Virus record (IMG/VR): IMGVR_UViG_3300026097_000057
Span: 1-34,275 of that record
Direction: 5' to 3' (one strand)
Source of the DNA: a virus
DNA: 34,275 nucleotides
The notes under the pieces were generated by a model that saw only the letters and a list, made by a program, of their open reading frames with translations, was not told where the DNA came from and did no database searches. The translations under genes and the position numbers were made by a program. Shown here piece after piece: positions 5,307-15,905 of the stretch. How positions within the stretch are numbered: the first letter of the stretch is position 1; each line of letters starts with the position of its first letter.

Positions 5307-5525
5307 ATGGACCAATATACAAAAATCGTCCTAGATAACGCACGTTGGACCGGCAAAGATCAAAAAACAGATCAACCTATCTACTCGGTCAGCCACGACG
5401 GCATCGATTACGAAGCAAATAATACCTATGACCTCATCATCATGTTGCGCAAAGCAAACAACGTGGATGTCGTCGAACACATGGAAGTCATTCGGGAAAA
5501 GCACGGGAAGCCCGCTTCTGCTTGA
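5307..5525 (+). CDS. Hypothetical protein, 72 aa
   Basis: ATG 5307 follows a strong AGGAGG site (5297-5302); the open frame extends back to 5250, but this start is clearly better. The product begins MDQYTKIVLDNARWTGKDQK and looks like a small beta-rich domain followed by a helix. Not recognised. Its stop codon lies inside the -35 box of the putative RNA promoter. Confidence 0.8.
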   Translation: MDQYTKIVLDNARWTGKDQKTDQPIYSVSHDGIDYEANNTYDLIIMLRKANNVDVVEHMEVIREKHGKPASA

Positions 5526-5550
5526 CAGATCGTCAGGCATCGCATACCTT
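5522..5550 (+). promoter_or_regulatory. Candidate promoter of the structured RNA, with TATGCGA heptamer (reverse)
   Basis: A consensus TTGACA at 5522-5527 is spaced 17 nt from TACCTT at 5545-5550. TCGCATA, the reverse complement of TATGCGA, occupies 5540-5546 and overlaps the -10. Predicted transcription start is near 5557, just before the first hairpin. Confidence 0.5.
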
Positions 5551-5556
5551 AGAGTC

Positions 5557-5790
5557 ATTCCTTCGGGAATGGAAAAAGTCCTCGGGACCGGACGCTAGGT
5601 TGAAACATGACCGATAAGCTGTCCCACTGCCGAGGAAAACTTACTTTTCTCCGTAAGTTGAGTACGTAAAGCCCTTGGCTACTCAGTAGCCAAGGCACAA
5701 AATTCTTAGTCCTCCCAACTGAGATGTGACCCACGGGTCACGACCCAAGGCCCCTGATTCGCTAACCACGGATCACGGGCCTTTTCTTTT
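5557..5790 (+). ncRNA. Putative structured non-coding RNA with anti-Shine-Dalgarno loop
   Basis: No open frame, but a dense series of stems. CATTCC/GGAATG with a TTCG loop lies near 5565-5571. A closing stem TCCTCGG 5579-5585 / CCGAGGA 5630-5636 encloses a second one (GGACGCT...AGCTGTCC). Next come AACTTAC 5638-5644 / GTAAGTT 5653-5659, a 10-bp stem 5673-5682 / 5686-5695, CTTAG 5705-5709 / CTGAG 5719-5723 with loop TCCTCCCAA, and GTGACCC/GGGTCAC before the terminal stem. It has its own promoter-like box and terminator. The stems were found by eye, and I match it to no known RNA family. The TCCTCCCAA loop is complementary to the TTGGGAG ribosome sites of downstream genes. Confidence 0.6.
5747..5790 (+). 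terminator. Intrinsic terminator ending the putative RNA
   Basis: AAGGCCC at 5747-5753 pairs with GGGCCTT at 5777-5783; inside it TGAT 5755-5758 pairs with ATCA 5772-5775 across a single C/C mismatch. The tail is TTCTTTT. It is the only T-run terminator in this non-coding region. Confidence 0.65.
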
Positions 5791-6069
5791 GGCAGTAACA
5801 AAGAGCATATGTACTTATACGAGTAGAAAATGAAAAAAAATATTTTTTATAAAAAAATGGTGTATACGGTGTAGTTTGTGTTACCAACCAGTAATGACGT
5901 GTGTTTCAGAGGTATCACCAAGGTAACAGGTAACAGAAGTTAATCGGGACTACACTCGACTTTGAAATGGTTTTTTTATTTTTTCTGATTTTCTCCCTAT
6001 ATAAGTACATGTGCGCTTTGCATTACTTTGAAGTAGAATCGCAGAAAATCATGTACTAGGAGGCATGCT
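5791..6069 (+). other. AT-rich non-coding region upstream of the small terminase gene
   Basis: 280 bp without a gene. It holds long A and T tracts (5828-5860 and 5971-5985) and a set of repeats: TGTTACC at 5879-5885 and its inverse GGTAACA twice in tandem at 5922-5928 and 5929-5935. Sitting directly before terS, it could be a packaging (pac/cos) site, an origin or an operator; nothing decides between these. The ribosome site for terS (AGGAGG, 6058-6063) is at its end. Confidence 0.45.
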
Positions 6070-7066: not shown

Positions 7067-7088
7067 CACAGTAGAAATACGTATGCGA
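7063..7088 (+). promoter_or_regulatory. Early cassette A: TTGACA-N13-TATGCGA
   Basis: TTGACA at 7063-7068, then 13 nt, then TATGCGA at 7082-7088. The first box overlaps the stop codon of the nuclease gene. The same arrangement with the same spacing recurs at 8256 and 8872. A spacing of 13 does not fit a sigma70 -35/-10 pair, so TATGCGA may be an operator or activator site rather than the -10. Confidence 0.6.
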
Positions 7089-7097
7089 TTTTATAAG

Positions 7098-7121
7098 GGC
7101 ACCAATAACGGTGCCTTTTTT
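7098..7121 (+). terminator. Cassette A hairpin
   Basis: GGCACC/GGTGCC with a 6-nt loop and six T. It lies between the promoter-like box and the ribosome site TGGGAGGAC (7125-7133), so it can stop the upstream transcript and also sits in the leader of the next gene. Confidence 0.85.
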
Positions 7122-7136
7122 GTCTGGGAGGACAAC

Positions 7137-8259: not shown

Positions 8260-8281
8260 CAACTTAAAATTAAGTATGCGA
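8256..8281 (+). promoter_or_regulatory. Early cassette B: TTGACA-N13-TATGCGA
   Basis: TTGACA 8256-8261, 13 nt, TATGCGA 8275-8281. Same spacing as cassettes A and C. A TATAAG box follows at 8285-8290. Confidence 0.6.
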
Positions 8282-8287
8282 CTGTAT

Positions 8288-8313
8288 AAGAGCGGGAATG
8301 GCCCGTTCTTTTT
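8288..8313 (+). terminator. Cassette B hairpin
   Basis: AAGAGCGGG/CCCGTTCTT with one G-T pair, a 5-nt loop and a short T tail; followed by the ribosome site TTGGGAG at 8316-8322. Confidence 0.75.
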
Positions 8314-8328
8314 AATTGGGAGATTAAG

Positions 8329-8875: not shown

Positions 8876-8897
8876 CAACGTATATAAATATATGCGA
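8872..8897 (+). promoter_or_regulatory. Early cassette C: TTGACA-N13-TATGCGA
   Basis: TTGACA 8872-8877 overlaps the stop of the upstream gene; after 13 AT-rich nt comes TATGCGA at 8891-8897. Confidence 0.6.
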
Positions 8898-8905
8898 CAA
8901 AGAAG

Positions 8906-8931
8906 CCCTGCAATTACGCAGGGTTTTTTTT
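8906..8931 (+). terminator. Cassette C hairpin
   Basis: CCCTGC/GCAGGG stem, 6-nt loop and eight T, directly followed by the ribosome site TTGGGAG at 8933-8939. Confidence 0.85.
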
Positions 8932-8945
8932 GTTGGGAGACAACT

Positions 8946-9943: not shown

Positions 9944-9965
9944 TCCTATCGCATACCTATGCGAT
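9940..9965 (+). promoter_or_regulatory. Early cassette D: palindromic TCGCATA/TATGCGA site
   Basis: ATCGCATA-CC-TATGCGAT at 9948-9965 is a perfect 8-bp inverted repeat made of both orientations of the heptamer. TTGATC at 9940-9945 precedes TATGCGA (9958-9964) by 12 nt. The palindrome suggests a site for a dimeric protein. Confidence 0.6.
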
Positions 9966-9972
9966 TCTTTGA

Positions 9973-9998
9973 GCCGGTCCTAAGTGACCGGCTTTTTT
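9973..9998 (+). terminator. Cassette D hairpin
   Basis: GCCGGTC/GACCGGC with a 6-nt loop and six T, then the ribosome site CAGTTGGGAG at 10005-10014. Confidence 0.9.
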
Positions 9999-10022
9999 GT
10001 TTAACAGTTGGGAGACTGAACT

Positions 10023-10821: not shown

Positions 10822-10838
10822 GCGACTTATCGCATAAT
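10809..10838 (+). promoter_or_regulatory. Early cassette E: TTGCAA-N18-CATAAT with reversed heptamer
   Basis: TTGCAA 10809-10814 and CATAAT 10833-10838, 18 nt apart, form a sigma70-like promoter. TCGCATA (10830-10836) overlaps the -10. The boxes begin inside the end of the upstream gene. Confidence 0.55.
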
Positions 10839-10842
10839 TGAG

Positions 10843-10866
10843 ACCGGCCCCAGTGGCCGGTTTTTT
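10843..10866 (+). terminator. Cassette E hairpin
   Basis: ACCGGCC/GGCCGGT, 5-nt loop, then T5. It begins about at the predicted transcription start, so the transcript of the next gene would carry it at its 5' end. Confidence 0.88.
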
Positions 10867-10892
10867 ATTATCTAAGTTGGGAGACTTAAACC

Positions 10893-11512: not shown

Positions 11513-11530
11513 ATCTAGTTGTCGCATACT
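11501..11530 (+). promoter_or_regulatory. Early cassette F: TTGCAA-N18-CATACT with reversed heptamer
   Basis: TTGCAA 11501-11506 and CATACT 11525-11530 at 18-nt spacing, with TCGCATA at 11522-11528 over the -10. Same geometry as cassette E. Confidence 0.55.
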
Positions 11531-11533
11531 TGA

Positions 11534-11557
11534 GCCCGCCCTAGTGCGGGCTTTTTT
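11534..11557 (+). terminator. Cassette F hairpin
   Basis: GCCCGC/GCGGGC with a 6-nt loop and six T, followed by the ribosome site CAGTTGGGAG at 11566-11575. Confidence 0.9.
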
Positions 11558-11584
11558 ATATCTAACAGTTGGGAGACTGAAACA

Positions 11585-11840: not shown

Positions 11841-12231
11841 ACGCCCCCAATACATGGCGAGCCGTGGCCCGCGCACCCAGAGCCGAAAGTTACCGGCAAA
11901 ACAACCGAGAGCAGCCGAACGTGCAAAAAGGTCGGGGCGCTGCCGAAAGCGATCCGGCAACAATTAACCAGAAACCGCGAGTCGTGATCCGTGGACCGCC
12001 CGCAGTTACTAAGAAACGCGGCAAAAGTGCCAGGGGACATTACCCAGCGCATCCGGTCCGCTATCCCCTGGCACTTATCCGCGGTCCGTGGTCCGTGGTG
12101 CAGGAAAAACGGCACGGGGCCCGTGGCGATCGGGTCAGCGAAATCGAGGCGCGGCGCGGGGTCCAGAGCGATCGAGCGGCGGCCCGCAGGTCGAGCTAGA
12201 CGGGTGTAAAGTCCATGTTTCTGACAAATAT
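11841..12231. other. GC-rich non-coding region with a 13-bp inverted repeat
   Basis: About 390 bp without a credible gene, clearly more GC-rich than its surroundings. AAGTGCCAGGGGA (12025-12037) and its exact inverse TCCCCTGGCACTT (12064-12076) flank a 26-nt loop. A short tandem GGTCCGT repeat follows at 12083-12095, and the near-palindrome CACGGG-G-CCCGTG lies at 12113-12125. It could be a structured RNA or an origin. It separates the early-type genes from the virion genes. Confidence 0.55.
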
Positions 12232-13952: not shown

Positions 13953-15905
13953 ATGGCAGAATTTTCAGATCGCGACGTATTAACCCGGATCAATCAGATT
14001 CAAGCGGCAGGCGGCGGCGATAACCCCACCACGCGTGCTCAAATTGCTCAAGAGGCCATTGATGCTGGCGTAGATGCGGCGCAGATTTCACGGGCTTTAA
14101 GTCTCTCGGCGGCAGATCGAGGGGTAGAAAGCGGCTTTACTTCTGGCGGCACCCGAGTAGCAAACATTGCCTCTGGCATTGGATACGATTTAGGCGCCAC
14201 CTCTCCTTTAGTTGATTTAAGCACGATTGGTAGCGCGGAAGCGGCACGCCAGGGCTTGTATGCGGGCGATTTCGGTGCTCCTGGCTTCGATCAAATCATG
14301 CAGGGCTTGTACGCTTCAGACCCGGCAGACACGACTGTTTTAGATACGTTGCAATCCGGATCGCTTGTTAACGAACCTGCGAGCAGCCCGCTGTCAATCG
14401 GTAACCGCGTGACACGGACCACGGACCCTTTATACACGGCACCTACCTCCGGTTTTCAGTACGACACACCGACAGAGTTGGTAAATCCGGAGACGGGTGA
14501 GTTTGTATCAACCGGGGAGCTTATGGCGCAAAACGTGGCCCAGGGGCCCCTGACGCAATCGATGGAGCAGGTGATTACGCCATCGGCGGTCGAGGGCGAG
14601 GCGCCGGCAATTTCGTATGACTATGTTCCGTTTGACCCAACCACGGCGAACCCAATCGTTACCGCGTTACCAGAAGTAAAAGCTTCGGATTTCTTGTTCT
14701 CTGGGTTGATGCGCCAGCCTGAATTAGGTGCGGTCAATAATCAGTTTGCGCAAGACGTGCCGTCTATGATGGCGGGCTCGATTTTAGATCCTTTGGTGTA
14801 TGGCGATTTAAACGGTGACGGCGTAGTGGATGCTCAGGATGCGGCGTTGTATCAATCTCAACAGGGCAGCACGGGGGGTACGGCGATGTTTAATCGAGGC
14901 GGTTATGTGCAGAATTTTTCTGAGGGCGGGCGAGTTAGTCAAGCAGAGTTAACAGAAATTTATAACAATTTACTGCGTCGCGATCCGGATGTTTCCGGCA
15001 TTGAATACTGGACCGGGATGGATGTTGATCCAAACATTACATACGATCAAACTCCCACAAGTGCTCTTACTAAAGAAGCGGTGGAAGCTGCAATTATGGC
15101 AGGCCCCGAATACCAAGCCCTGCAGCGAGGGGACTATCTTACTCGCGATGTGGGCACGGCTTTTGACGCCTTACTAGGTCGAGACCCTACGATAGAGGAA
15201 GCAGAGTATTACACCGGGTTTGATTTCGACGCTAATGTGGGCGCTAGTGCAAATCCATTTAGAAACAGGGACATAGATTCAATTATTGCGAACATAAAAG
15301 GAACAGAGGAATATTTGAATCAGTTCCCCGACACAACTACCGGTGGTAATACCGGTGGTAATACCGGTGGTAATACCGGTGGTAATACCGGTGGTAATAC
15401 CGGTGGTAATACTGGTGGTGGAACCATCGGTGGTGGCGCGGTTGATCGAGGCGACGTAAACCTTGTCGCAAACAGCCCGTTTGGAGCGATGATTTCAAAC
15501 GTGACTAACCAACGGTCTTCGACAGATCCTGTCGTAGAGTCTAATTTAGGAACGGGGCTGACCGGAACTTTAGTAAGTAGCCCAAGTTTCAATGCTCTTC
15601 CCTATGAAAGAGGTCCTTTTGATCCAGTTAGTTCAAATCCGATAGTCACGGAGCTTCCAGAAGTAACTTCTTCTGATTTCTTGTATCAAGCGTTGATGAA
15701 CCAGCCTTATTTGCAAAGCGTCAACAATAATTTTGCTAACTTAGTTCAAAACCTTGATCCAATTATGAGAGCGCAGCAACAAATCGCTTTAGGCGGTATT
15801 GGTTCGTTAAATCTAAACAGTGATTTAAATGGCGACGGCGTTGTGGACGCGCAAGATGAAGCCATTGCTAATGCAATTAGAAATCAATATGCAGGGTTGG
15901 TGTAA
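13953..15905 (+). CDS. Large virion-associated protein with dockerin-like calcium loops and internal duplication
   Basis: 650 aa. Two near-identical loops, DLNGDGVVDAQD at residues 285-296 and 624-635, are canonical calcium loops of the dockerin/EF-hand type. Each follows a duplicated block: PFDPTTANPIVTALPEV from about residue 222 and PFDPVSSNPIVTELPEV from about 550. Between them are two DUF4214-like units (LLRRDPDVSGIEYWTG, LLGRDPTIEEAEYYTG), a FNRGGYVQNFSEGG segment and a (TGGN)6 linker. Placed between terL and the portal, it is probably a structural or ejected protein. A function is not known; DUF4214 is my reading of the pattern. Confidence 0.8.
   Translation: MAEFSDRDVLTRINQIQAAGGGDNPTTRAQIAQEAIDAGVDAAQISRALSLSAADRGVESGFTSGGTRVANIASGIGYDLGATSPLVDLSTIGSAEAARQGLYAGDFGAPGFDQIMQGLYASDPADTTVLDTLQSGSLVNEPASSPLSIGNRVTRTTDPLYTAPTSGFQYDTPTELVNPETGEFVSTGELMAQNVAQGPLTQSMEQVITPSAVEGEAPAISYDYVPFDPTTANPIVTALPEVKASDFLFSGLMRQPELGAVNNQFAQDVPSMMAGSILDPLVYGDLNGDGVVDAQDAALYQSQQGSTGGTAMFNRGGYVQNFSEGGRVSQAELTEIYNNLLRRDPDVSGIEYWTGMDVDPNITYDQTPTSALTKEAVEAAIMAGPEYQALQRGDYLTRDVGTAFDALLGRDPTIEEAEYYTGFDFDANVGASANPFRNRDIDSIIANIKGTEEYLNQFPDTTTGGNTGGNTGGNTGGNTGGNTGGNTGGGTIGGGAVDRGDVNLVANSPFGAMISNVTNQRSSTDPVVESNLGTGLTGTLVSSPSFNALPYERGPFDPVSSNPIVTELPEVTSSDFLYQALMNQPYLQSVNNNFANLVQNLDPIMRAQQQIALGGIGSLNLNSDLNGDGVVDAQDEAIANAIRNQYAGLV
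15339..15422 (+). repeat. 12-bp tandem repeat coding for TGGN units
   Basis: Six perfect copies of ACCGGTGGTAAT (15339-15410) and a seventh changed copy (15411-15422), encoding (TGGN)6-TGGG as a flexible linker. Perfect identity at DNA level, including third positions, points to recent slippage and probably variable copy number. Confidence 0.95.

Follow-up and report, generated by a model that had tools for sequence, protein, structure and literature searches.

A putative phage small RNA with an anti-Shine-Dalgarno loop that changes in step with the leaders of its candidate target genes

The viral DNA analyzed here, 34,275 nucleotides long and referred to throughout as the window, probably encodes at 5556-5795 a phage small RNA that would act in trans as an anti-Shine-Dalgarno (anti-SD) element and repress the genes of the terS-terL cassettes as a group. 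One hairpin loop of this RNA is complementary to the cassette leaders, the complementarity is in statistical excess and restricted to the cassettes, and loop and leader changed in coordination across three phage clades. From the pairing geometry, the predicted leader structures and the genomic context, we infer repression rather than activation, initiation by loop-loop contact and the timing discussed below.

Promoter and terminator sequences in the window suggest that the locus would give rise to a discrete transcript (Table 1); an automatic promoter and terminator scan of the window listed neither the RNA promoter nor the terminator hairpin. The upstream gene's stop and the RNA promoter overlap, and the TCGCATA of the promoter is the same element as at the cassette promoters; it is also present in L002, L003 and L004, members of a comparative set of 80 loci collected by a terS search. 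The predicted fold of the RNA (minimum free energy about -88 kcal/mol for 5556-5795) opens with a 5' hairpin, continues through a branched domain to the anti-SD hairpin and closes with another hairpin and the terminator. Compared with the copy in L002 (75-79% identity), eight base pairs are changed on both sides with pairing kept, which points to selection on RNA structure, and AGTCCTCCCAACTGAGA of the anti-SD hairpin is identical. Comparison with the Rfam 15 covariance models yielded no family match at the gathering score and noise only, and a nucleotide-similarity search of the phage collection did not find the RNA. The 5' domain (5556-5700), with the conserved GACGCTnGGTTGAAACATGACCG, is common to L002 only and could hold a 20-codon open reading frame or another function. 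Before terS, an AT-rich noncoding region (5800-6060) is highly conserved relative to L002 and is a possible origin or packaging site.

Table 1. RNA locus and cassette leaders in the window (duplex energies with the loop region in kcal/mol)
Feature	Positions	Strand	Remarks
Putative structured RNA, approximately 235 nt	5556..5795	+	ends inferred
Sigma70-like promoter of the RNA, TTGACA-17 nt-TACCTT	5522..5550	+	read by eye
TCGCATA element inside the RNA promoter	5540-5546	+	
Anti-SD hairpin TCTTAGT-CCTCCCA-ACTGAGA	5704..5724	+	seed 5709-5721; from folding
Intrinsic terminator hairpin, tail CCTTTTCTTTT ending at 5790	5747..5790	+	from fold and by eye; aligned and paired in L002
Cassette 1 promoter element TATGCGA (7082-7088) and terminator-like hairpin (7095-7118)	7082..7118	+	between upstream gene and leader
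Leader 1 hairpin TTGTC-TGGGAG-GACAA, ATG 7137	7120..7135	+	duplex -20.2; also in L002
Leader 2 hairpin TTAAT-TGGGAG-ATTAA, ATG 8329	8312..8327	+	duplex -20.2
Leader 3 hairpin TTGT-TGGGAG-ACAA, ATG 8946	8930..8943	+	duplex -19.0
Leader 4 hairpin CAGT-TGGGAG-ACTG, ATG 10023	10005..10018	+	duplex -23.2
Leader 5 hairpin TAAGT-TGGGAG-ACTTA, ATG 10893	10873..10888	+	duplex -21.6
Leader 6 hairpin CAGT-TGGGAG-ACTG, ATG 11585	11566..11579	+	duplex -24.6

All coordinates and complementarities that a first-pass annotation had quoted for the hairpin were recovered in the sequence. CTCCCAACTG (5712-5721) is the exact complement of 10005-10014 and 11566-11575, and its first nine bases pair with 10875-10883; GTCCTCCCA (5709-5717) pairs with 7125-7133, and two segments, 8316-8322 and 8933-8939, are complementary to CTCCCAA. 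If one base is allowed to bulge, AGTC[C]TCCCAACTG, 13 pairs form with the leaders at 10005 and 11566. Moreover, the complement of a commonest leader 9-mer, CTCCCAACT, has a single occurrence in the 34 kb, which lies in the RNA loop. Duplexes of the loop region with the six cassette leaders average -21.5 kcal/mol, versus -10.9 kcal/mol for 54 other starts, while the generic 16S anti-SD gives -7.3 to -10.2 kcal/mol for the cassettes versus a mean of -8.0 kcal/mol for other starts. As the generic anti-SD thus separates nothing, the loop match is not explained by general anti-SD/SD pairing. The RNA reads TTGGGAG, including non-SD bases, which answers the earlier caution that any anti-SD sequence matches somewhat. 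When the cost of opening both RNAs was included, cassettes remained separated from other starts (-8.5 vs -1.7 kcal/mol; Mann-Whitney p 1.4e-5), with leader 4 (10005) as the best and leader 6 (11566) as the second-best target, and with the leader at ATG 8946 (-4.9) weaker than some non-targets.

In the shuffled control, none of 301 dinucleotide shuffles of the RNA reached the observed pairing sum (z -4.4). The seed is thus complementary to the translation-initiation regions of several mRNAs beyond chance, and this excess strongly supports the suggestion of the first-pass annotation that a single RNA may be able to block all six cassette-led genes. That the match merely reflects the tendency of any C-rich loop to fit SD sequences somewhat is scarcely credible. 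Three non-cassette starts (2392 on the minus strand, 20180 and 33998) do pair with the loop at -18.5 to -21.3 kcal/mol before accessibility is considered, but the failure of the generic anti-SD to separate cassettes from other starts, the shuffles, the uniqueness of the antisense sequence in the window and the covariation in two further clades all speak against chance, which the cross-clade matrix described below already contradicts. The same three starts limit the earlier statement that virion genes use other ribosome sites, which otherwise held broadly, loop pairing there being weak. Control of terS in cis by the hairpin was set aside, as pairing reaches only -10.4 and the terminator lies in between.

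The window, L002 and L003/L004 form clade A, with TTGGGAG as leader word and CTCCCAA as loop word. In L003/L004 (terS identity 58%), whose hairpin reads TTGGT-TCTCCCA-ACTAA, a minimal version of the locus consists of a TCGCATA promoter, TTCTTGGT-TCTCCCA-ACTAAGAA and then a second hairpin, which in L003 is without a U-tract; the leaders read GTTGGGAGACT or TTGGGAGAAAC. A separate search with GTYCTCCCAACTRAGA gave 27 matches in viral contigs; beyond the window population, L002 and L003/L004, these look unrelated and are mostly coding.

Two further clades emerged from an unbiased search for repeated leader words (common 9-mers) and their complements. Clade B has the leader and loop words ACTACGGGA/TCCCGTAGT (L005, L010, L012, L013, L021, L037, L038, L066 and L070), and its leaders read AACTACGGGAG. 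The strand of the leaders holds a single antisense match to the leader motif, in a hairpin with a 6-bp stem, CAACTA-TTCCCG-TAGTTG, followed by a terminator. Nine sequences show no variation in this 20-nt hairpin, next to a diverging terminator. The hairpin begins about a dozen bases past the last stop codon of the DNA polymerase operon, so that the RNA would be derived from a 3' untranslated region (3'UTR). Some clade B leaders (L142 18074 and the 18689 region, corresponding to G005 38074 and 38689) read GGGAATAG instead of ACTACGGGA, and GGGAATAG fits the opposite side of this palindromic hairpin (CTATTCCC).

Clade C has the words ACTTTGGGA/TCCCAAAGT (L017, L040, L058, L067, L074 and others), with leaders that read ACTTTGGGAG and an antisense site that presents TCCCAAAGTG as a loop inside a GGGTT...AACCC helix, again followed by a terminator. 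The stem arms vary around a loop that is retained; RNAalifold returned no pairs for the clade C stems, because the arms misalign across lineages, and pairing is seen within single sequences. A second antisense hairpin with terminator, ACACT-YCCCAA-AGTGT, lies in a 3'UTR within the cassette region; sites are at L067 9850, L058 13745, L017 about 11876 and in relatives. In L027, L028, L030 and L033, which are near-identical and were fetched by terS alone, the clade C loop is short by one C with the leaders unchanged, and 8 pairs remain. The pattern scans for clades B and C required the loop sequence, and their counts (25 contigs for clade B; 61 stretches for clade C, about 57 of them accounted for by rows with a terminator next, two of these without obvious kinship) therefore show spread, not loop conservation.

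The three clades share the gene order polA operon - hairpin - terS - cassettes - terL. For a cross-clade comparison, leaders were picked solely by the promoter element TATGCGA/TCGCATA. Own-clade pairing ranges from -16.5 to -19.4 kcal/mol, versus -9.1 to -12.4 kcal/mol between clades, giving a block-diagonal pattern in which seed and targets change together. None of 20,000 label permutations, in which related leaders are treated as independent, reached the observed own-clade mean; as the permutation ignores kinship, the independent units are the three clades with different words and the smaller change inside clade A. Loop changes unaccompanied by leader changes had been named beforehand as evidence against a regulon; instead, loop and leaders differ together between the three clades.

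A rival possibility is that leader motif and hairpin are opposite-orientation copies of one protein-binding site, either a DNA operator or a translational-repressor RNA hairpin, in which case the complementarity would be a mere by-product of a nearly palindromic hairpin. The reverse complement of the hairpin does contain the leader word (for example CAACTACGGGA in clade B), so that a protein could bind both, and the hairpins predicted for the window leaders are regular, with one loop sequence and changing stems, a pattern common among protein sites. We nevertheless consider this explanation improbable, since in all three clades the antisense copy shares the strand of the leaders and lies within a hairpin, for the most part with a terminator after it, the spacing of the leader motifs from the start codon is that of a ribosome-binding site, and the leader hairpin is not kept in all L003/L004 leaders.

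The leader hairpins had escaped the first-pass annotation. In all six window leaders TGGGAG is predicted to form a hexaloop on a stem of 4-7 bp that differs between leaders, and none of the eight other plus-strand occurrences of TGGGAG in the window has such a stem; by chance, a stem of at least 4 bp would flank a random hexamer at 2.4% of positions. Of the L003/L004/L108 leaders only about half retain the hexaloop hairpin, which is thus a secondary feature. CsrA sites have a hairpin over the SD with A(N)GGA in its loop, and CsrA sponges carry repeated GGA loops. The window loops (U-G-GGA-G at the SD, on stems of 4-7 bp) are near this form, with a GGA hexaloop in all leaders and U at the first position, and the leader hairpins might then be sites for a host CsrA/RsmA-type protein, the structured RNA being unrelated or a decoy. 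This is very unlikely, as the RNA shows an anti-GGA loop rather than repeated GGA loops, the clade B leaders (AACTACGGGAG) do not form the same hairpin, and covariation with the antisense loop would be left unexplained.

Leaders 2-6 are preceded by the same plan as cassette 1, with promoter element and terminator-like hairpin. Each such unit (window 7082-7118, 8275-8310, 8891-8925, 9949-9994, 10830-10864 and 11522-11553) consists of TATGCGA or TCGCATA, a GC-rich hairpin with a U-run near the likely transcription start and then the SD leader; the hairpin would be the terminator of the upstream unit and may also serve the new mRNA as its 5' hairpin. Both orientations of the promoter element are found, and some copies form an inverted repeat (TATGCGATAAGCGCATA; ATCGCATACCTATGCGAT) reminiscent of the operator of a dimeric regulator (L142 12518-12535; G006 near 12160; window 9949-9964). 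The cassette products tested had no Pfam family above the cut-off; the product of the cassette gene at 9221 matches a RusA-like resolvase family. Between terL and the portal gene, an open reading frame (window 13953-15905) combines a TGGN repeat linker with dockerin-like repeats (DLNGDGVVDAQD).

We suggest that the hairpin at 5704-5724 would offer its C-rich loop to the SD segment of the cassette leaders, forming 7-13 bp. At 6-10 nt upstream of the start codon, the duplex would cover GGGAG together with the adjacent 5' bases and thereby prevent ribosome loading on the first gene of each cassette. The window leaders show TGGGAG in a hairpin loop, and a loop-to-loop (kissing) contact is therefore a probable start, from which pairing would spread to 13 pairs with one bulge for the CAGT leaders. 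Repression is the expected outcome, given the position of the paired stretch over the SD. The pairing could instead be real but activate or stabilize cassette mRNAs, for example by shielding them from RNase, and the TCGCATA/TATGCGA element common to the RNA and its targets in clade A would be expected of co-expressed helpers as well. Pairing over an SD blocks 30S binding, and because every leader has its SD, at normal spacing, inside the paired stretch, we regard activation as unlikely.

As to timing, a repressing RNA might be co-expressed with its targets as built-in feedback, as the shared TCGCATA element of clade A would allow, or might shut the cassettes off after the replication operon has been transcribed, as the 3'UTR position in clade B would allow. 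The shared TCGCATA element would argue for co-expression as much as for the early-to-late switch envisaged in the first-pass annotation. An evenly balanced proposition, in our judgment, is that a marine phage group runs a self-directed riboregulon, in which the leader word of a lineage and its antisense hairpin drift together and the cassettes are turned off once the replication genes are expressed. One antisense hairpin RNA per lineage, encoded at the end of the replication operon, would then read the word of that lineage, and each lineage would represent a private code, inactive on the genes of another lineage.

HTVC023P, HTVC027P, DSL-LC04 and half of 023Pt_psg01 have repeated leader words and no convincing antisense counterpart, which suggests that the system is limited to some lineages of the portal/terS group. 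L132 (HTVC023P) and L133 (DSL-LC04) have repeated leader words of their own (ACTAACAAAG; ACATACAGGAG), for which an antisense hairpin was not found. A first scan of the genome collection gave no matches, and a second gave five that are unlike the phage element. A transcriptome study of HTVC027P, a distant relative, describes early genes that are all of unknown function and a peak of gp33 and gp34 at the early-middle stage (PMC12753301). These two genes sit between terS and terL, so that their timing fits early cassettes; it is silent on the RNA.

If correct, a set of a phage's own genes would be controlled by an RNA whose anti-SD seed coevolves, and the control of infection in these phages would gain a post-transcriptional level. 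Seed-target pairs from the clades would be naturally orthogonal and could be exchanged between reporters, which makes the idea directly testable without the native host. Similar regulons might be found elsewhere by seeking hairpins antisense to the commonest leader word.

The alpha-r14 ('cuckoo') small RNAs, such as NfeR1 of Sinorhizobium meliloti, carry three CCUCCUCCC copies and address SDs in general (PMC10746234). Like them, the phage RNA leaves its anti-SD motif unpaired in a hairpin whose stem varies freely, and many mRNAs would be hit at the ribosome-binding site; unlike these bacterial RNAs, it is phage-borne and has one seed, which matches a phage-specific leader word including non-SD bases and changes with it. 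With one hairpin bearing UCCUCCCAA rather than several CCUCCUCCC hairpins, and without an Rfam match, it falls outside the alpha-r14 family. A comparable 10-nt anti-SD core, UUUCCUCCCU, represses many mRNAs in the case of the alpha-r8 RNAs SisA-D of Caulobacter, but there the core follows a weak hairpin as single-stranded RNA, is linked to Hfq and addresses host genes (PMC12559287). The c4 RNA of phages P1/P7 is likewise encoded by a phage, and its loops base-pair in the region of a phage gene's ribosome-binding site, which prevents translation; it differs in having one target, ant, and a role in temperate-phage immunity, as compared with at least six leaders here (PMC12197685). The staphylococcal C-rich-loop RNAs RNAIII and RsaA also pair C-rich sequences with SDs and make additional loop-loop contacts with mRNA hairpins, but they are bacterial global regulators for which the abstracts describe no lineage-specific coevolution with a repeated leader word (PMC2837412, PMC3961350). 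The phage small RNAs in the literature searched affect either a single phage target or the host, and the open-access literature yielded no phage RNA controlling a set of its own genes via a coevolving repeated leader word, an absence that is not proof. A self-directed regulon with a lineage-specific, coevolving seed therefore appears to be new, while its proposed mechanism resembles that of the alphaproteobacterial anti-SD RNAs.
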